A stretch of DNA of 33,527 bases, taken from assembly GCA_002840355.1 (NCBI GenBank), contig PHAL01000031.1, forward strand, positions 1 to 33,527. Direction: 5' to 3'. The DNA comes from Elusimicrobia bacterium HGW-Elusimicrobia-3. GTDB lineage: Bacteria; Elusimicrobiota; Elusimicrobia; Elusimicrobiales; UBA9959. The notes below the pieces were generated by a model. That model had not been told where the DNA came from, ran no database searches, and saw only the letters and a list, made by a program, of their open reading frames with translations. How positions within the stretch are numbered: the first letter of the stretch is position 1; each line of letters starts with the position of its first letter. The translations under genes and the position numbers were made by a program. Shown here one piece after another: positions 21,984 through 27,794 of this stretch.

Positions 21984-22020
21984 ATTCTACCAAAACAAAA
22001 CCGCCGGGCTCTCCCGGCGG
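21984..22020 (-). promoter_or_regulatory. Composite terminator and leaderless promoter
   Basis: Minus strand: CCGCCGGG-AGAG-CCCGGCGG (22001-22020), which can terminate the cyclase-like gene, runs into TTTTGTTTTGG and TAGAAT (21984-21989), the -10 of the prenyltransferase gene. Confidence 0.6.
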
Positions 22021-22075
22021 ATTCGCTGTCAAGATTCTGCGCTATGCGCATCAGACGGCCAAGACCTGACCCAAT
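22001..22075 (-). repeat. Island repeat copy A (gene-end tag)
   Basis: Shares with copy B, in order, the GC hairpin, TGTCAAGA (22027-22034) and AAGACCTGACCCAAT (22061-22075). Copy A has ~24 extra bases in between that contain a small hairpin (TGCGC-TAT-GCGCA). It lies directly beyond the stop of the cyclase-like gene. The GGGTCAGGTCTTG string resembles, from memory, ends of REP/RAYT-type elements. Confidence 0.6.
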
Positions 22076-22081
22076 TCTCAA

Positions 22082-22849
22082 CTAAGTCCTAGCCCTTACG
22101 CGCATTTCCTCTCCTTTAAACTTGCAAAAAATAATATAACGTTCTGTTTCCTCAACTTTTTCCACTGCTCGCGCATCTCCCAAGTCTTTACCATGTGCCC
22201 AGAACTTACTATGAACATACTCCCGCAAATCTCTCGCCCCCGCAAATGTCATATTATCTGACTTGAGATTATATTGCACCGTTCTTTGCCCACCTGTCAG
22301 TGGAGTTTTATACTCCAACACTTGGCTATTAAAGTACGCAAGCGCATCCGGATCTTTTGCTGTCTCAACCATGCTATATCTATCAAACATCCCTTGTGTT
22401 AGCACACATGTAGACAGATTCAGCTTATTCGCCAGCTCATAAGCATCAACAATACCCCGTCCAGCCATGCTATGGCCAGTAGATCTGTATTCCCCAAAAT
22501 GCAAGGCCCCTCGCAATGGAAGCCCATAATCAAACATCCGAGTCATAAGATTTCTAGCTATTCCCAAAACGACAAAATAAGGAACCGCATCAGTTTCAGA
22601 TTCCGGCTCAAGCGTATAAACAACCGTATCCGAGAATACTAACCATTTTATTCGGGAGAATATGGCACGAACGTTCTCTTCTGCCCTATTTCCCACGAGC
22701 CCTGGGAATACCGTTTTATAAAAATCTGGCCCTGGATTTTCCAGCGAACCAATAAAGTTTAAAACGTCATCCTGAACTGCAGTATCTGAATTATTTTTTA
22801 AAAAACTTTGGTATCCCAATATATCGAAGAAACCAATATAGCCTTTCAT
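22082..22849 (-). CDS. Nucleotide-cyclase-like protein (class III fold candidate)
   Basis: 255 residues, AT-rich codons unlike the flanks. It begins MKGYIGFFDILGYQSFL: Asp9 in the FxDIxGY pattern of class III nucleotidyl cyclase strand 1. WLVFSDTVVYTL supplies a second Asp (74), as in the metal-binding loop. LRGALHFGEY...GRGIVDAYELANKLN (~125-160) corresponds to 'R.GIh.G....G..vn.A..L'. So a cyclase fold is likely; whether it is active, and on which nucleotide, is unknown. Related proteins are frequent in variable islands, and cyclases of this class produce cCMP/cUMP in Pycsar defence. Strong Shine-Dalgarno AGGAGA 6 bases before ATG. It lies behind the KAP gene but is separated from it by a terminator. 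Confidence 0.6.
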   Translation of the reverse strand: MKGYIGFFDILGYQSFLKNNSDTAVQDDVLNFIGSLENPGPDFYKTVFPGLVGNRAEENVRAIFSRIKWLVFSDTVVYTLEPESETDAVPYFVVLGIARNLMTRMFDYGLPLRGALHFGEYRSTGHSMAGRGIVDAYELANKLNLSTCVLTQGMFDRYSMVETAKDPDALAYFNSQVLEYKTPLTGGQRTVQYNLKSDNMTFAGARDLREYVHSKFWAHGKDLGDARAVEKVEETERYIIFCKFKGEEMRVRART

Positions 22850-22930
22850 TTTTTATCTCCTACTACCCCTTAAGCCCTCGAATACTGCCAACAAGCACTC
22901 GAGTATTTCAGATTCTGCTTTATATACAAC

Positions 22931-22976
22931 ATTTTACTAAAACAAAACCGCCGGGCTTTTCCTTCCCCCGGCGGTT
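22931..22976 (-). promoter_or_regulatory. Composite terminator and promoter in the island
   Basis: Minus strand: AACCGCCGGG...CCCGGCGGTTT-type hairpin with an 11-base loop (22946-22976) after the KAP gene, then TTTTGTTTTAG and TAAAAT (22931-22936). The hexamer is ~81 bases before the cyclase-like ATG and may be its -10. Confidence 0.55.
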
Positions 22977-23007
22977 TACATGTCAAGAATCAAGACCTGA
23001 CCCCAAT
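22946..23007 (-). repeat. Island repeat copy B (gene-end tag)
   Basis: Hairpin, TGTCAAGA (22981-22988) and AAGACCTGACCCCAAT (22992-23007), in the same order as copy A. It lies directly beyond the stop of the KAP gene. An adjacent AGTCAGGACC (23021-23030) can pair with the GACCTGAC part. Confidence 0.6.
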
Positions 23008-23034
23008 CCCACCTCGCTTTAGTCAGGACCTTCT

Positions 23035-26000
23035 CTATCTATCCTTAGGGTCCGATTGCTCAGCAAGTTTTTCAATAGAAGTTATATGGAGCCTAACTCC
23101 CTCAGAGAGTGATTGATCCCCGGCCACATTCCTGACTCTTTCCTTAAACGAATGTTTAGTTTCTTTTTCGCTAGCATTAAGTATTTTTCCGTCTGAGAGA
23201 ATTGTCTCCAACCAAGCAAGTTCCGACTCAATCTTTTTTCCAATAATGTCTGAAGCAAGCACGCGAATTACCCTATCTCCATCTTTAACGAAAAGTTCTG
23301 ACTCAGAAAGCACAGGAGTATACACACTCAAAAACAACTCCAACTTCTCTTTTGAATGGGAAATCATTTTATCCCGCAAAGTTAACCTTAGAGTTTTCCG
23401 CCAATCTGACTCAAGAGCCTCTAGCAACCGTGTCCACTGCCCCTTATATTTCGCAATTGCCTGCGCCCCAACAACCAACTTTTCAGCATGCTCATTCAGC
23501 GCATCATGAAATTCTTGTGACAACCCAATCGTAGCCCCAGATTCAACTAGTTGGAGCACCAAGCCAAGACAATCCCCCTCTTTCCCGATCTCTTCTGCCC
23601 ACACTTCCTTGGGAATAGGAAGAATACTCTTTACCAGGAACTGAATATAATCCACATCACTCGCTTTCCCCTTCTGCTTCAATATTAAGGAGTATAGCCA
23701 CGCATGATTTCTATCAAAACCATTCGCAATAATATCCCCTACGATATCGGTATGCCCCAATAATTGAGAAATCAAGGAGTTGAGATTTGCCTCCGTAAGT
23801 GCTTTCCTAAGGTAATCCGCATTACCCAAAAACATCGGGGCCGTAAGGTGGTCAATAAACTCCACACTCTCTACCAGCAGATTAATGAGTCTAGACACAA
23901 ACTTTTCAGTAATTGGTATTGTAGTCTTTATTTCAAACAATTTTTCAACAACAGACATCTCCACCACCAACTTCAGGAATTCAGATAGCAGAGCAGGATG
24001 AGCATCTGGGGACGCTAGTATTGCCTTATAATTAGCTCTCCCCGCATTTGAATTCCGAGTATTGGTATTATTACCTCCAGCTGCCTGCACCAAAAACATC
24101 GCCATCACAACTAAAGCATTCGCTTTAGGATTTTCCGGATCAATGCGCGCCAAATAATGCGGGATATGCCCATTCACACAAAAGGCAGTAAGAAGATTCT
24201 TCGCGGTAGCATCCTCATCTCTACGTAATAAAAGTGCCTTCAAGCACCCCACCAACTCTGGCAGTGCAATTTCTGTCCCGATTCGGCTTGCTATTGCATT
24301 AATTAGAGTATCCCATTTTTCGCCAGGCCATATTTTCGCCAAAAAGTTCAACAGCCTTGCTTCACGCTCTCTAAAGACCCCCGACTGACACTCTCTCACT
24401 AATTCATTAATAACATGCACTTTTCCGGCTTTAGGAATAAGGTATGGCTTCAGAAGATCCGATTTGTCCCCTTCGGCAATAACTGCGGCAATTTCAATAA
24501 AGTCCTTCTCTGAACCCGGGATTCTTAGGTTATCTAAGGAAGCTTTCGCATCTATAGCATTTAGGTATTCAACAATCTGAGATACAGAATCCGCCCATCC
24601 CCGTAAAACTCTTGCATTAGGGCTAACCCCTGCACTCCACGGTTTATCCGTAAGGCTTCCGACAACATTTTTTGCGATACTCTCAAGCTCTTCCTGTCGC
24701 GTATTTTTAAAAATTAAAACGATACCTTTTCCTACCGAAGAATCAAGATTTTGCCAACCAGAGACTTTTCCAATACTTAAACTCAACCACCCCCACACGG
24801 AACCACTCACCAATTTTGCATCTTCCCCAAGGCTCTCAATCGCCACCGCAGACAGAGCCAAGGAAGCAGGCTCCTCCTTTACCCATGCCTCATGGTTCTT
24901 GATAATTATATCTTCCAACAAATCATAAAATCCCGGAACATGGCAGAATTCTTTCAGACTACGCCCCGTGGTAAGATTCTCTTCAACTTTCTGTCCAATT
25001 AAGACCTGCAACCCATCATCTTTCTTGACGCCAAAATGTAATGCGATTAAATCTTTTTGCCAATCCGGCCAAAATATAACGTTCTGTATTCTTGGCTCAA
25101 TAAAGTCCCAGGTTATCAACTCCTTTTCAGAGCGCCTGATATTCTCGGCATACAACACATACAACGCTTGTGACGCGAGGCCAATATCGTCCCCCCACAA
25201 TAAATGCAAAGAAACGACTCTATTAATGAACAATTTCACATCACGCGGAGTAACTCTACCCTGTTTTGTCACGACTCTTTGACGATACAGTCGAAAAACG
25301 GCAAGCAATACATTTTCATTTCCCGCATGACTTGGAAACGCTATTTTCAACTGCTCGATAAAATATGTTTTCAATTGAGATAACACCGGAGGCGGGACAT
25401 AAAACTCCATCTGAAAAGTCTTCTCTACGAAGGCATCCACCAATGTTGACCCAATAGCATTTTTCCCGGTATCTACCGCAGATGCGTCCCAAAGTCGACT
25501 AAGCGCGGACTTATCCATCGGAACTATTAGCCAGAAAGAATCCGTCCAGGACATCTTTTGTGGGGCATCGAACTCGAACAAAGTACGCATAGTGGCCCAT
25601 ATTGATAAAGCATCTTTAGTATCCACTCGGTCCAGGTTATCAACAACAACAATGAGCCGCCGTCCATTTAAGGCCAAGGCCTTCCCCAACATCTTCTTTA
25701 ACACTTCCTGGAATTCAATTGTAGTAGGATCTGGAGTAGTTACCGATGTTGTCTTGTGATTGGCTGTGGTCTTAGTAAAGAACAATGATACGTAGTCTTC
25801 GGATTTTTTTCCGAATATTTTATTACACAGGCATCCCAGCACCGCCACAGTAAACGGCAGCAAAAGAATAACTATTCCCCAAATCCATAATGGGAAATAC
25901 CATTTTGGCAAAGAGGCATAATCTTTTGATGTTAGTGTCCCAAAGAAAGAAAAACCTATTGGGTAAAAAAGCAAAAGAAACAGTATTATTTTACCCAACA

Positions 26001-26400
26001 ACGTAATTGTTGGCTCAGATTTCGTTTCAGTATCCACAATCTTACGCGACAATCTCCCCAACTCTGCCTCCCATTCATCTTTACCCGTCCACGGAACGAG
26101 GGCTTCCGCCAGAGACTCAAGAAACGATCTCCGCAGAGGATCTCCCTGATGTGCCCACGCATCAAAAACAAATACTTTCTCTTTGATGTTTTTGACTTCG
26201 CCAGAAATCCTAAAATGTTCCTTAATAAAACCAACAATAGTCGATTTACCGCTTCCCCAATCTCCGAACAAAGCGATTGCCTTGCCTCCATTGCCATCTT
26301 CCGTTAAATCAACAATAGCATCTGCGATTTGCTTGTGTGCCCCGAAAGCATCACTCGAAGCAGGCGTATCCGACAGAAAATATGCCTTACATTTTCCCAT
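23035..26400 (-). CDS. KAP-family P-loop NTPase with two membrane segments
   Basis: 1121 residues. Walker A GDWGSGKS at 46-53, followed by VFVFDAWAHQGDPLRRSFLESLAEAL. Two hydrophobic segments at ~137-197 (IILFLLLFYPIGFSFFG and WIWGIVILLLPFTVAVLGCLC) are inserted in the NTPase, as is characteristic of KAP proteins. Walker B is RRLIVVVDNLDRVD near 250. The remaining ~750 residues are helical, without a recognised domain, and could be a sensor. KAP NTPases include the phage-exclusion protein PifA and are often membrane-associated and island-borne. Codons are AT-rich. Shine-Dalgarno AGAGGT 4 bases before ATG. Neighbours are a cyclase-like gene and a nuclease, consistent with defence, though no function is proven. 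Confidence 0.87.
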   Translation of the reverse strand: MGKCKAYFLSDTPASSDAFGAHKQIADAIVDLTEDGNGGKAIALFGDWGSGKSTIVGFIKEHFRISGEVKNIKEKVFVFDAWAHQGDPLRRSFLESLAEALVPWTGKDEWEAELGRLSRKIVDTETKSEPTITLLGKIILFLLLFYPIGFSFFGTLTSKDYASLPKWYFPLWIWGIVILLLPFTVAVLGCLCNKIFGKKSEDYVSLFFTKTTANHKTTSVTTPDPTTIEFQEVLKKMLGKALALNGRRLIVVVDNLDRVDTKDALSIWATMRTLFEFDAPQKMSWTDSFWLIVPMDKSALSRLWDASAVDTGKNAIGSTLVDAFVEKTFQMEFYVPPPVLSQLKTYFIEQLKIAFPSHAGNENVLLAVFRLYRQRVVTKQGRVTPRDVKLFINRVVSLHLLWGDDIGLASQALYVLYAENIRRSEKELITWDFIEPRIQNVIFWPDWQKDLIALHFGVKKDDGLQVLIGQKVEENLTTGRSLKEFCHVPGFYDLLEDIIIKNHEAWVKEEPASLALSAVAIESLGEDAKLVSGSVWGWLSLSIGKVSGWQNLDSSVGKGIVLIFKNTRQEELESIAKNVVGSLTDKPWSAGVSPNARVLRGWADSVSQIVEYLNAIDAKASLDNLRIPGSEKDFIEIAAVIAEGDKSDLLKPYLIPKAGKVHVINELVRECQSGVFREREARLLNFLAKIWPGEKWDTLINAIASRIGTEIALPELVGCLKALLLRRDEDATAKNLLTAFCVNGHIPHYLARIDPENPKANALVVMAMFLVQAAGGNNTNTRNSNAGRANYKAILASPDAHPALLSEFLKLVVEMSVVEKLFEIKTTIPITEKFVSRLINLLVESVEFIDHLTAPMFLGNADYLRKALTEANLNSLISQLLGHTDIVGDIIANGFDRNHAWLYSLILKQKGKASDVDYIQFLVKSILPIPKEVWAEEIGKEGDCLGLVLQLVESGATIGLSQEFHDALNEHAEKLVVGAQAIAKYKGQWTRLLEALESDWRKTLRLTLRDKMISHSKEKLELFLSVYTPVLSESELFVKDGDRVIRVLASDIIGKKIESELAWLETILSDGKILNASEKETKHSFKERVRNVAGDQSLSEGVRLHITSIEKLAEQSDPKDR

Positions 26401-26541
26401 ACATACCTCTAATTAGCGAAGTTTATATTCAGCGATAAGATATTTCTGCATGACATTACAAATTCAGACCAGAACACCCCGACATTAAGCATCTTTTACT
26501 ATTCACAACAAAGATAATATATACCAATTGTTGGCCACACT

Positions 26542-26650
26542 TTACATCTTTAAATATCCCTCAATCTCTCTCAAATCCACATTTGCCAGCAGGCCATTGG
26601 TGGGCTTATACATACTCCTATCACCCAGCAATTCTCCGTCCGCTCCTCTG
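26542..26650 (-). pseudogene. Remnant resembling the tail of the AddA-like gene
   Basis: Minus strand: an open stretch ends in MYKPTNGLLANVDL followed by REIEGYLKM and TAA (26542-26544). Bases 26577-26607 match 27821-27851, inside the 3' end of the helicase-nuclease gene, at 24 of 31 positions, mostly differing at third codon positions (proteins YKPTNGLLANVDL and YNKPAKALLAYVDL). Upstream it runs into the cloverleaf element at 26652. It could be a gene end left or brought in by an insertion. The rest of 26401-26541 shows nothing I can support. Confidence 0.5.
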
Positions 26651-26651
26651 A

Positions 26652-26777
26652 CTGCCGGGGGTTATGGGTCCGAGGGCCGTCACGGAAGGAGGAACTTGCA
26701 TAGCGCGACGACTGAGTGACGAGGTGCGGCCACGGTGTGGCCGACGCCGTGCCCCGAGGACCCCATACCCCGGGCAG
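26652..26777. other. GC-rich 126-nt cloverleaf element (structured RNA or MITE)
   Basis: In AT-rich surroundings, the ends form a near-perfect long stem: CTGCCGGGGGTTATGGGTCC pairs with GGACCCCATACCCCGGGCAG, with few mismatches. Inside are two further paired regions: GTCAC...GTGAC (26679-26720), and GGTG-CGGCCAC-GGT-GTGGCCG-A-CGCC (~26723-26748). This gives a branched, cloverleaf-like fold on either strand. No open frame of note. It could be a non-coding RNA gene, or a non-autonomous mobile element with imperfect terminal inverted repeats. No clear target duplication is visible. Confidence 0.6.
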
Positions 26778-26832
26778 CCGATAACACGCAAGTCAATCAC
26801 AATTCAGACACCAGACCTAATTCAATCTCCCT

Positions 26833-27717
26833 TTAATATCTTTTCGGGACAATAATTGCCTCTACCCTTAACCCATCTTTTTTCCCGCTGAGGTCACTCT
26901 CTAATCCACCAGGATTAATTATTCGATTTTCAGGATCATACACCATACATATTAATGTTTTACAACTTTTCATTTTTGAATACCGGGCAATGTCCAAAAT
27001 AAGCTGATCCCCAACTTCTTTCGCTCCAAGCCCAGCACGTGTTTTCTTAACCTCTATAACAATATCTTCTGGCTTTAATAAAAAGTCAACTCTGGCTGAT
27101 TTTCCCGCATAACTGGGGGTCCACTCCTCTGGGCGCACGTCATCAAATTGCAGACAAAGCAATGCATGGAGGAGATCCTGAACATCATACTCATCCGAGA
27201 CATCCAATGTGGGGCGGCTATCATGCCTTTGACGCAATTGAATAGATACTGTGTGAAATCTCAATATAAGGCGACGAACATCCTCCACTGCGTCACATTC
27301 CGACTTAGGATTAGGAAGAGAGTCACCTCTCTCTTTAGGCTTCTGTGACCCATTTCGCTCCTTATATTCAGCATCTAACCATTCTTTCAATTTAATTAAA
27401 TCCTTTTCCTCGCATACAATTTGAAGACGGCTTTCCCACCTATGCGCCCCCTGAAGAACATTAAAGTTTTGAATTACCCCCTGCTTCTTTAACAAACCAC
27501 AAGCCTTCCAGCGGTACTCGCAATAGCGATCCCGCATATTTACCCCGTCACCTGGCATTAACATCGGAAACTTTACAATAGTAGGGAGTAGTGGAATTGC
27601 GACCTCAGCAGACAACTGCAATTCACTGCAAATATCCATAGTGACGTCATAAACTGCCAAAAAGTTCTCGTTTGTCAGACTTGTTACCCATTTCGGAATA
27701 AACTTATCTGATTTCAT
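26833..27717 (-). CDS. DpnII/MboI-type PD-(D/E)xK endonuclease
   Basis: 294 residues from the ATG at 27717, chosen for AAGGAAAG 6 bases upstream; the frame is open to 27756. The C-terminal ~150 residues read LRFHTVSIQLRQRHDSRPTL, DEYDVQDLLHALLCLQFDDVRPEEWTPSYAG, then ARVDFLLKPEDIVIEVKKTR. This gives the catalytic D (~210) and E-x-K (~220-222) of a PD-(D/E)xK nuclease, followed by DQLILDIARY and TLICMVYDPENRI. This matches my recollection of the DpnII/MboI-like REase domain (PF18742). The N-terminal half is helical and unassigned, perhaps a recognition domain. No methyltransferase is nearby, so it may not act as a classical restriction enzyme. AT-rich like the rest of the island. Confidence 0.8.
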   Translation of the reverse strand: MKSDKFIPKWVTSLTNENFLAVYDVTMDICSELQLSAEVAIPLLPTIVKFPMLMPGDGVNMRDRYCEYRWKACGLLKKQGVIQNFNVLQGAHRWESRLQIVCEEKDLIKLKEWLDAEYKERNGSQKPKERGDSLPNPKSECDAVEDVRRLILRFHTVSIQLRQRHDSRPTLDVSDEYDVQDLLHALLCLQFDDVRPEEWTPSYAGKSARVDFLLKPEDIVIEVKKTRAGLGAKEVGDQLILDIARYSKMKSCKTLICMVYDPENRIINPGGLESDLSGKKDGLRVEAIIVPKRY

Positions 27718-27794
27718 GTATTCTTTCCTTGCCACCAGATTATTAATATTCCACAAACGCCAGTGTCACCCAATCAGCACCTTAATGTCCCAAA

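Follow-up and report, generated by a model that had tools for sequence, protein, structure and literature searches.

The GC-rich cloverleaf at positions 26652–26777 of the window (the whole stretch of 33,527 nucleotides analysed here) is, judging from sequence comparison, likely to be a solo member of a family of small dispersed repeats, non-coding and of mobile type, which would be moved in trans and whose cores would be swapped and flipped by recombination. The family is previously undescribed, native to one family of Elusimicrobiota and probably mobile. The original prediction had offered two guesses, a new structured RNA linked to the neighbouring nuclease or KAP gene and a non-autonomous mobile element; the second is better supported, by dispersed copies, by filled and empty orthologous sites and by the position of this GC-rich repeat, which comes from a GC-rich genome, in a low-GC stretch. 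The most economical reading is thus a small non-autonomous mobile-type repeat (MITE/BIME/ERIC-like) rather than an RNA tied to either gene.

The interval 26652–26777 on the + strand, which is the folding strand, comprises the whole element of 126 nt. Its predicted coordinates proved good to a few bases, and the description of a GC-rich cloverleaf inside AT-rich DNA was confirmed (GC content 0.70 versus 0.41 and 0.42 in the 500-bp flanks). With RNA parameters the minimum free energy is −72.3 kcal/mol over 126 nt (z −5.66; equalled by 0 of 200 dinucleotide shuffles), and with DNA parameters the fold has a z of −4.31. An interrupted stem of 5, 5, 6 and 4 pairs leads to a three-way junction that carries two hairpins, so the branched fold with two internal hairpins is present as proposed. 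The terminal stem of about 20 bp also exists, but it actually consists of three blocks of 5, 5 and 6 bp with a mismatch and an internal loop between them, and four more pairs lie further in. The match to the covariance model extends over 26659–26772 (85.8 bits, E 1.7e-19). The parts of the element are as follows:

26652–26671, + strand: outer stem, 5′ arm, predicted pairs in blocks 26652–26656, 26658–26662 and 26666–26671; the homologous helix 1 of the outer stem covaries across copies and across orthologues
26674–26677, + strand: inner junction-closing block, 5′ side, predicted to pair with 26751–26754
26678–26721, + strand: hairpin arm A of the three-way junction; helices 3 and 4 show two-sided changes in 11 of 15 pairs
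26695–26706, + strand: conserved tip of arm A, CTTGCATAGCGC, near-invariant columns in alignment A1
26723–26748, + strand: hairpin arm B of the three-way junction; helix 5 has 96.7% of cells paired and two-sided changes in 5 of 8 pairs
26732–26738, + strand: invariant tip of arm B, ACGGTGT, invariant columns in alignment A1
26751–26754, + strand: inner junction-closing block, 3′ side, from the predicted fold
26758–26777, + strand: outer stem, 3′ arm, blocks 26758–26763, 26767–26771 and 26773–26777 of the predicted fold

The family version of the arm A tip is CTTGCRTA(A)GCGC and includes a TT bulge.

On one side of the element a DpnII/MboI-type nuclease gene (26833–27756, −) stops, and on the other a KAP NTPase gene (23035–26400, −) starts; both genes are on the strand opposite to the folding one. 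An open tail of 37 residues (26545–26655, −) ends at the outer edge of the element. It had been taken for a helicase-tail remnant interrupted by the cloverleaf, which was not borne out: NCBIfam and plasmids gave no match for the tail, and within the bacterial family it has just weak ones (E ≥ 0.1), of which one, on inspection, proved to lie inside a BamA-like outer-membrane protein. Without a relative, the "remnant" has no nameable identity. The first 22 kb of the contig have a GC content of 65%, and the low GC content around the window copy is consistent, as a single case, with the element having moved in after that DNA arrived.

The stretch at 22000–27756 has 43% GC within the 65% GC contig. 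Its KAP NTPase shows weak similarity to QatA/PifA, its DpnII/MboI-type nuclease is similar to the PADLOC entry Aga_Helical-REase, and a UvrD/PD-DExK helicase-nuclease adjoins; it is possibly an acquired defence stretch.

BLAST found 23 matches to the element in its own genome, and each of the 32 genomes of the genus has matches. Covariance model R1, built on alignment A1 of 67 copies, detected at least 65 copies in the own genome (E up to 3.6e-5, with 150 of 2711 candidates scored), a lower bound for the genome copy number that the original prediction had asked for. The covariance search that it had likewise proposed recovered homologues with compensatory changes among both paralogues and orthologues, and the element thereby withstood the refuting condition that no such homologues exist. 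Within the phylum, the model found many copies in genera g1, g10, g12 and g13 and single copies in g3; the six further genera sampled from this family have none, and four other families yield just one or two weak matches per genome. Counted by genus, the repeat occurs throughout its own and in four others of its family. The pattern of the two hairpin tips occurs in at least 114 stretches of a collection of 84,980 species; among the matches listed, the titles are Elusimicrobia, Elusimicrobiales or Elusimicrobiota, except for bins titled "bacterium" and two contigs, L048 and L132. No match to the element was found in plasmids, phages or viral contigs. Rfam gave no match at the gathering score, and its permissive-threshold matches were all far under the cut-offs. 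A literature search, which lay outside most subscription journals and preprints, found no report of such repeats in Elusimicrobia. Assembly may conceal further copies: the sequences come from draft MAGs, and a contig breaks off at several of the copies (C20, C36 and C37).

Five genomes of the class outside the home family (G191, G219, G250, G287 and G290) each contain one or two weak model matches (E 1e-5 to 1e-8), possibly distant cloverleaf relatives. The contig L048, binned as Magasanikbacteria, changes from about 31% to about 61% GC half way along and ends in a cloverleaf copy; this GC jump indicates that it is probably a chimeric assembly. On the 5.5-kb contig L132, binned as Verrucomicrobia (GWC2_42_7), a cloverleaf copy occupies positions 207–319. 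Since its GC content is 42% throughout, horizontal transfer and a misbinned low-GC Elusimicrobia contig both stand as explanations.

The fold is supported by strong covariation, including compensatory changes at pheS-pheT orthologues. In a structure-free analysis of 136 aligned copies, the strongest pairs by mutual information were mostly nested complementary columns. Given the structure, 84.2% of cells are paired and 28 of 38 pairs show two-sided changes; the covariation score is 0.321, a value reached by 0 of 500 shuffles; shuffles give 0.117 and slid controls no more than 0.191. As the kinship of copies inflates covariation counts, orthologous copies were also examined. Between pheS and pheT, 12 species share the element in the same orientation and with a recognisably common outer frame. 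The first 20 stem pairs of these orthologues are 92.5% paired, and double-change cells number 32 against 7.4 expected (0 of 1000 shuffles). GA/GA internal loops interchange with Watson–Crick pairs between subtypes.

Folding energy was dropped as a test of strand: the window copy folds at −72.3 on the + strand versus −64.5 on the − strand, but shuffled sequences give a nearly equal asymmetry, and base composition would account for most of such a gap. For this reason, G-T wobbles were counted instead; were the duplex all that counted, the two strands should show them in equal numbers. The inner helices have 40 on the + strand versus 6 on the other. A first count in the outer stems (94 versus 37) was partly inflated by wobbles conserved within a subfamily, and a recount in the outer stems of one subfamily, with the conserved parts excluded, gave 26 versus 7 (p = 0.001), wobble p-values being optimistic because the copies are related. 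The enrichment of wobbles on one strand identifies that strand as the folding one, and the bias fits RNA and single-stranded DNA alike.

Some of these features would also be expected if the cloverleaf were a multi-copy structured RNA with a cellular job, as a small RNA or as a regulator or stabiliser within mRNAs, and if covariation reflected selection on the transcript at each site. The strand-biased wobbles, the invariant hairpin tips, the RNA-typical TT bulge and interchangeable GA/GA loops, and the single frame long kept at pheS-pheT with compensatory changes all speak for such a molecule. Against it stand the lack of a tie to particular genes or of an orientation preference, the reversed copy at pheS-pheT in one species and the empty junction in others, the failure to find anything like a promoter or terminator in the surroundings of the window copy, and the lack of an Rfam family. 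We consider this explanation unlikely. A tRNA/tmRNA search returned nothing. The more specific proposal, which ties an RNA to the KAP gene or the nuclease, fails because other copies adjoin unrelated genes in either orientation and one site can hold opposite-orientation copies in different species.

Copies of the family, which number dozens per genome, are intergenic, scarce between divergent promoters and indifferent to gene direction. With genes called by a simple purpose-made predictor, 170 of 179 copies fall outside the genes, and coding sequence makes up 84% of the loci; the 128 copies with two assigned neighbours sit between tandem (82), convergent (36) or divergent (10) genes, and those between tandem genes are oriented with transcription in 34 cases and against it in 48. 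Orientation showed no significant bias relative to net coding direction. Most copies are solo, and all 25 close pairs (16 in the locus collection and nine in the own genome) are arranged head-to-head. The 50-bp spacers of seven pairs from one set of loci are related, which suggests that a pair may be a unit. Two head-to-head copies 1.3 kb apart were considered as a gene-bearing composite; the two ordinary ORFs between them were judged to be there by chance.

The flanks of four own-genome copies were traced in other species of the genus. Gaps at the orthologous sites are mostly about 190–250 bp (filled) or about 35–100 bp (empty or remnant), and the sequences confirm the presence of elements, short clean junctions and left-over single arms (the latter in G028, G009 and G017). 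At pheS-pheT, one species has a copy in the opposite orientation and other species have an empty junction. These gains and losses are scored as presence or absence and are not polarised on a tree. No target-site duplication was recognised by eye in the filled/empty comparisons, and exact boundaries differ by subtype.

Comparison with the closest species, G014, whose flanks are mostly 85–99% identical, revealed a short element-less gap at five of 16 comparable sites; the window site has no counterpart there. Stems were compared by eye and by script. At the site of C67:14924 the outer stem is almost identical and the core is of a different subtype; at C34:51708 the stem is similar and the core is flipped; at the C16 and C84 sites both stem and core type are kept, with an extra hairpin inserted in one. 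The C31 site holds a deletion remnant, and at most other sites unrelated stems occupy the same junction.

Local recombination between old copies, or deletion between them, could explain part of what looks like movement. Carried to its limit, this would mean an old, now immobile set of hairpins, whose differences between species stem from ectopic gene conversion, arm inversion, deletion and template-switch correction, with no transposition. The core swap within a kept outer stem at the C67 site, the remnant at the C31 site and the left-over single arms in G028, G009 and G017 would be explained, as would the failure to identify a mobilising enzyme. Such a set would not account for recent subfamilies with one outer stem at several sites (for example, the CATATGGGCAGG copies), for related-spacer pairs that recur at several sites or for a window copy in acquired-looking low-GC DNA, and we regard full immobility as distinctly improbable.

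The exchange of cores is also evident within the own genome. Copy C64 has its core flipped relative to the conserved terminus CCGACTNNGCNTCTCGCGG, which occurs at 12 sites in this genome versus 0 for the reversed control. At C9 and C67, the same terminus closes a second, unrelated structured core (GACTTTGGGGAAGGGGG...GGGGAACCGCGCAACGGTTCCC; L253 1380–1519 and L262 1380–1519, respectively) in place of the cloverleaf. This second core has 12 BLAST matches in the own genome, relatives in other species and no Rfam match; its family is also present in L022, L025, L051, L068, L110, L130, L138, L150 and L151. At those of the 12 terminus sites of the own genome that were inspected, the terminus bounds a structured core or a short stretch of non-coding sequence, with no recognisable transposase. 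A terminus shared by two core types, together with swapped and flipped cores, indicates that termini, stem and core act as separate modules. These observations might be extended to a modular class of mobile DNA, whose frame would consist of constant termini plus a site-specific paired stem and whose cores, cloverleaf subtypes as well as the unrelated second type, would be loaded, swapped and flipped by a dedicated fold-reading enzyme; we hold this to be rather doubtful. The repeat is a new family with unusual core exchange; it does not yet amount to a new principle.

One might suppose that the element is a giant REP/BIME/REPIN, mobilised by a RAYT (Y1/HUH) transposase that works on single-stranded DNA in folded form. 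Of the 32 genomes of the genus, 27 have Y1_Tnp genes; the spacer-separated inverted pairs and the compensatory changes in the arms are REPIN-like (PMC3116915), and some outer ends (GGAGCGGGTG...CACCCGCGAA) resemble REP feet (PMC2817692). However, the model matched nowhere in the 1.5 kb or so around 20 Y1_Tnp genes, and many of these genes are accompanied by hairpins that differ in sequence from the element. Y1_Tnp genes are equally common in element-free genera of the family (RAYT subtypes pooled), and many copies of the element are present in the five genus genomes without a detected Y1_Tnp. Strand bias relative to GC skew is likewise absent (81 versus 88 copies, a weak test with loci of about 4–17 kb). 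The link was rejected, with neither proximity nor co-occurrence, and mobilisation by RAYT is very improbable. REP/REPIN systems are defined by a RAYT gene flanked by two inverted repeat copies (PMC2817692); because this transposase association was tested for and not found, the element is not filed among them.

The preferred reading as a small mobile-type repeat is also consistent with likenesses to known families. ERIC/IRU/RU-1, the 127-bp enterobacterial repeat, and the MITEs Correia/NEMIS, RUP, RPE and YPAL are similarly 100–200 bp, intergenic and multi-copy, and they share a long paired stem between the ends and a stable predicted RNA fold (PMC2229807); the element here is non-coding. Different from them, it belongs to another phylum, has its own three-way junction with two conserved hairpin tips and its own locus-specific outer stems, varies in core type or orientation within one frame, and has no recognised terminal 5′-TA or target duplication. 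As in MITEs, the copies are small, non-coding, dispersed and intergenic, and long paired outer arms serve as terminal inverted repeats, although the arm sequence is locus-specific. The bcr1–bcr18 repeats of the Bacillus cereus group, as described in PMC3446304 and PMC2267715, are likewise lineage-restricted and intergenic; according to the same descriptions, bcr1–bcr3 are MITE-like and often part of UTRs, and bcr10 and bcr18 have a conserved structure. Core exchange and inversion, found in the element, are not among the bcr features given in those two descriptions. REP/BIME/REPIN sequences resemble the element in being extragenic, in forming inverted pairs with spacers, in compensatory arm changes and in occurring as solos and pairs (PMC3116915). 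They differ in that REPs are described as palindromes of 20–40 bp (PMC3733652), compared with about 115–130 nt here, and in that REP/REPIN have RAYT whereas the element has no RAYT association. In integron attC sites, the R and L boxes lie at the stem base, and cassette arrays and an integron integrase belong to the system; the conserved parts of the element, by eye, are the hairpin tips and not the stem base.

Under this reading, the unit would be moved, now or formerly, in trans by an enzyme that recognises either the termini or the single strand in its folded form; no transposase or recombinase mobilising the element was found. After insertion, the long inverted arms might stay paired through selection on the fold or through template-switch correction between the arms, and recombination between dispersed copies and across inverted arms may swap and flip the cores. 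A folding strand conserved over several genera, with compensatory changes even at one orthologous site, provides a rich natural data set on the movement of structured repeats, on what keeps their arms paired and on whether ordinary gene conversion or a novel recombinase underlies core exchange. The family also carries a warning for annotation: seen singly, a copy could pass for a new RNA gene, and several contigs end in a copy.

Two other kinds of hairpin were observed. Y1_Tnp loci (L154–L156, L159, L164 and others) are often flanked by hairpins of their own, GGGGACAGGCTACTTTTT...AAAAAGTAGCCTGTCCCC and AACCCGACA...TGTCGGGTT, apparently a separate repeat system. Small extra hairpins (for example, TGGAGCGAAGCGACA and ATAAACCGCATAGCGGTTTT) lie within cloverleaf arms at L029 3960–4200, right of 4120 in L037, at L020 12958–13071 and at L080 2586–2746, and from this position inside the arms the repeats appear to be nested.
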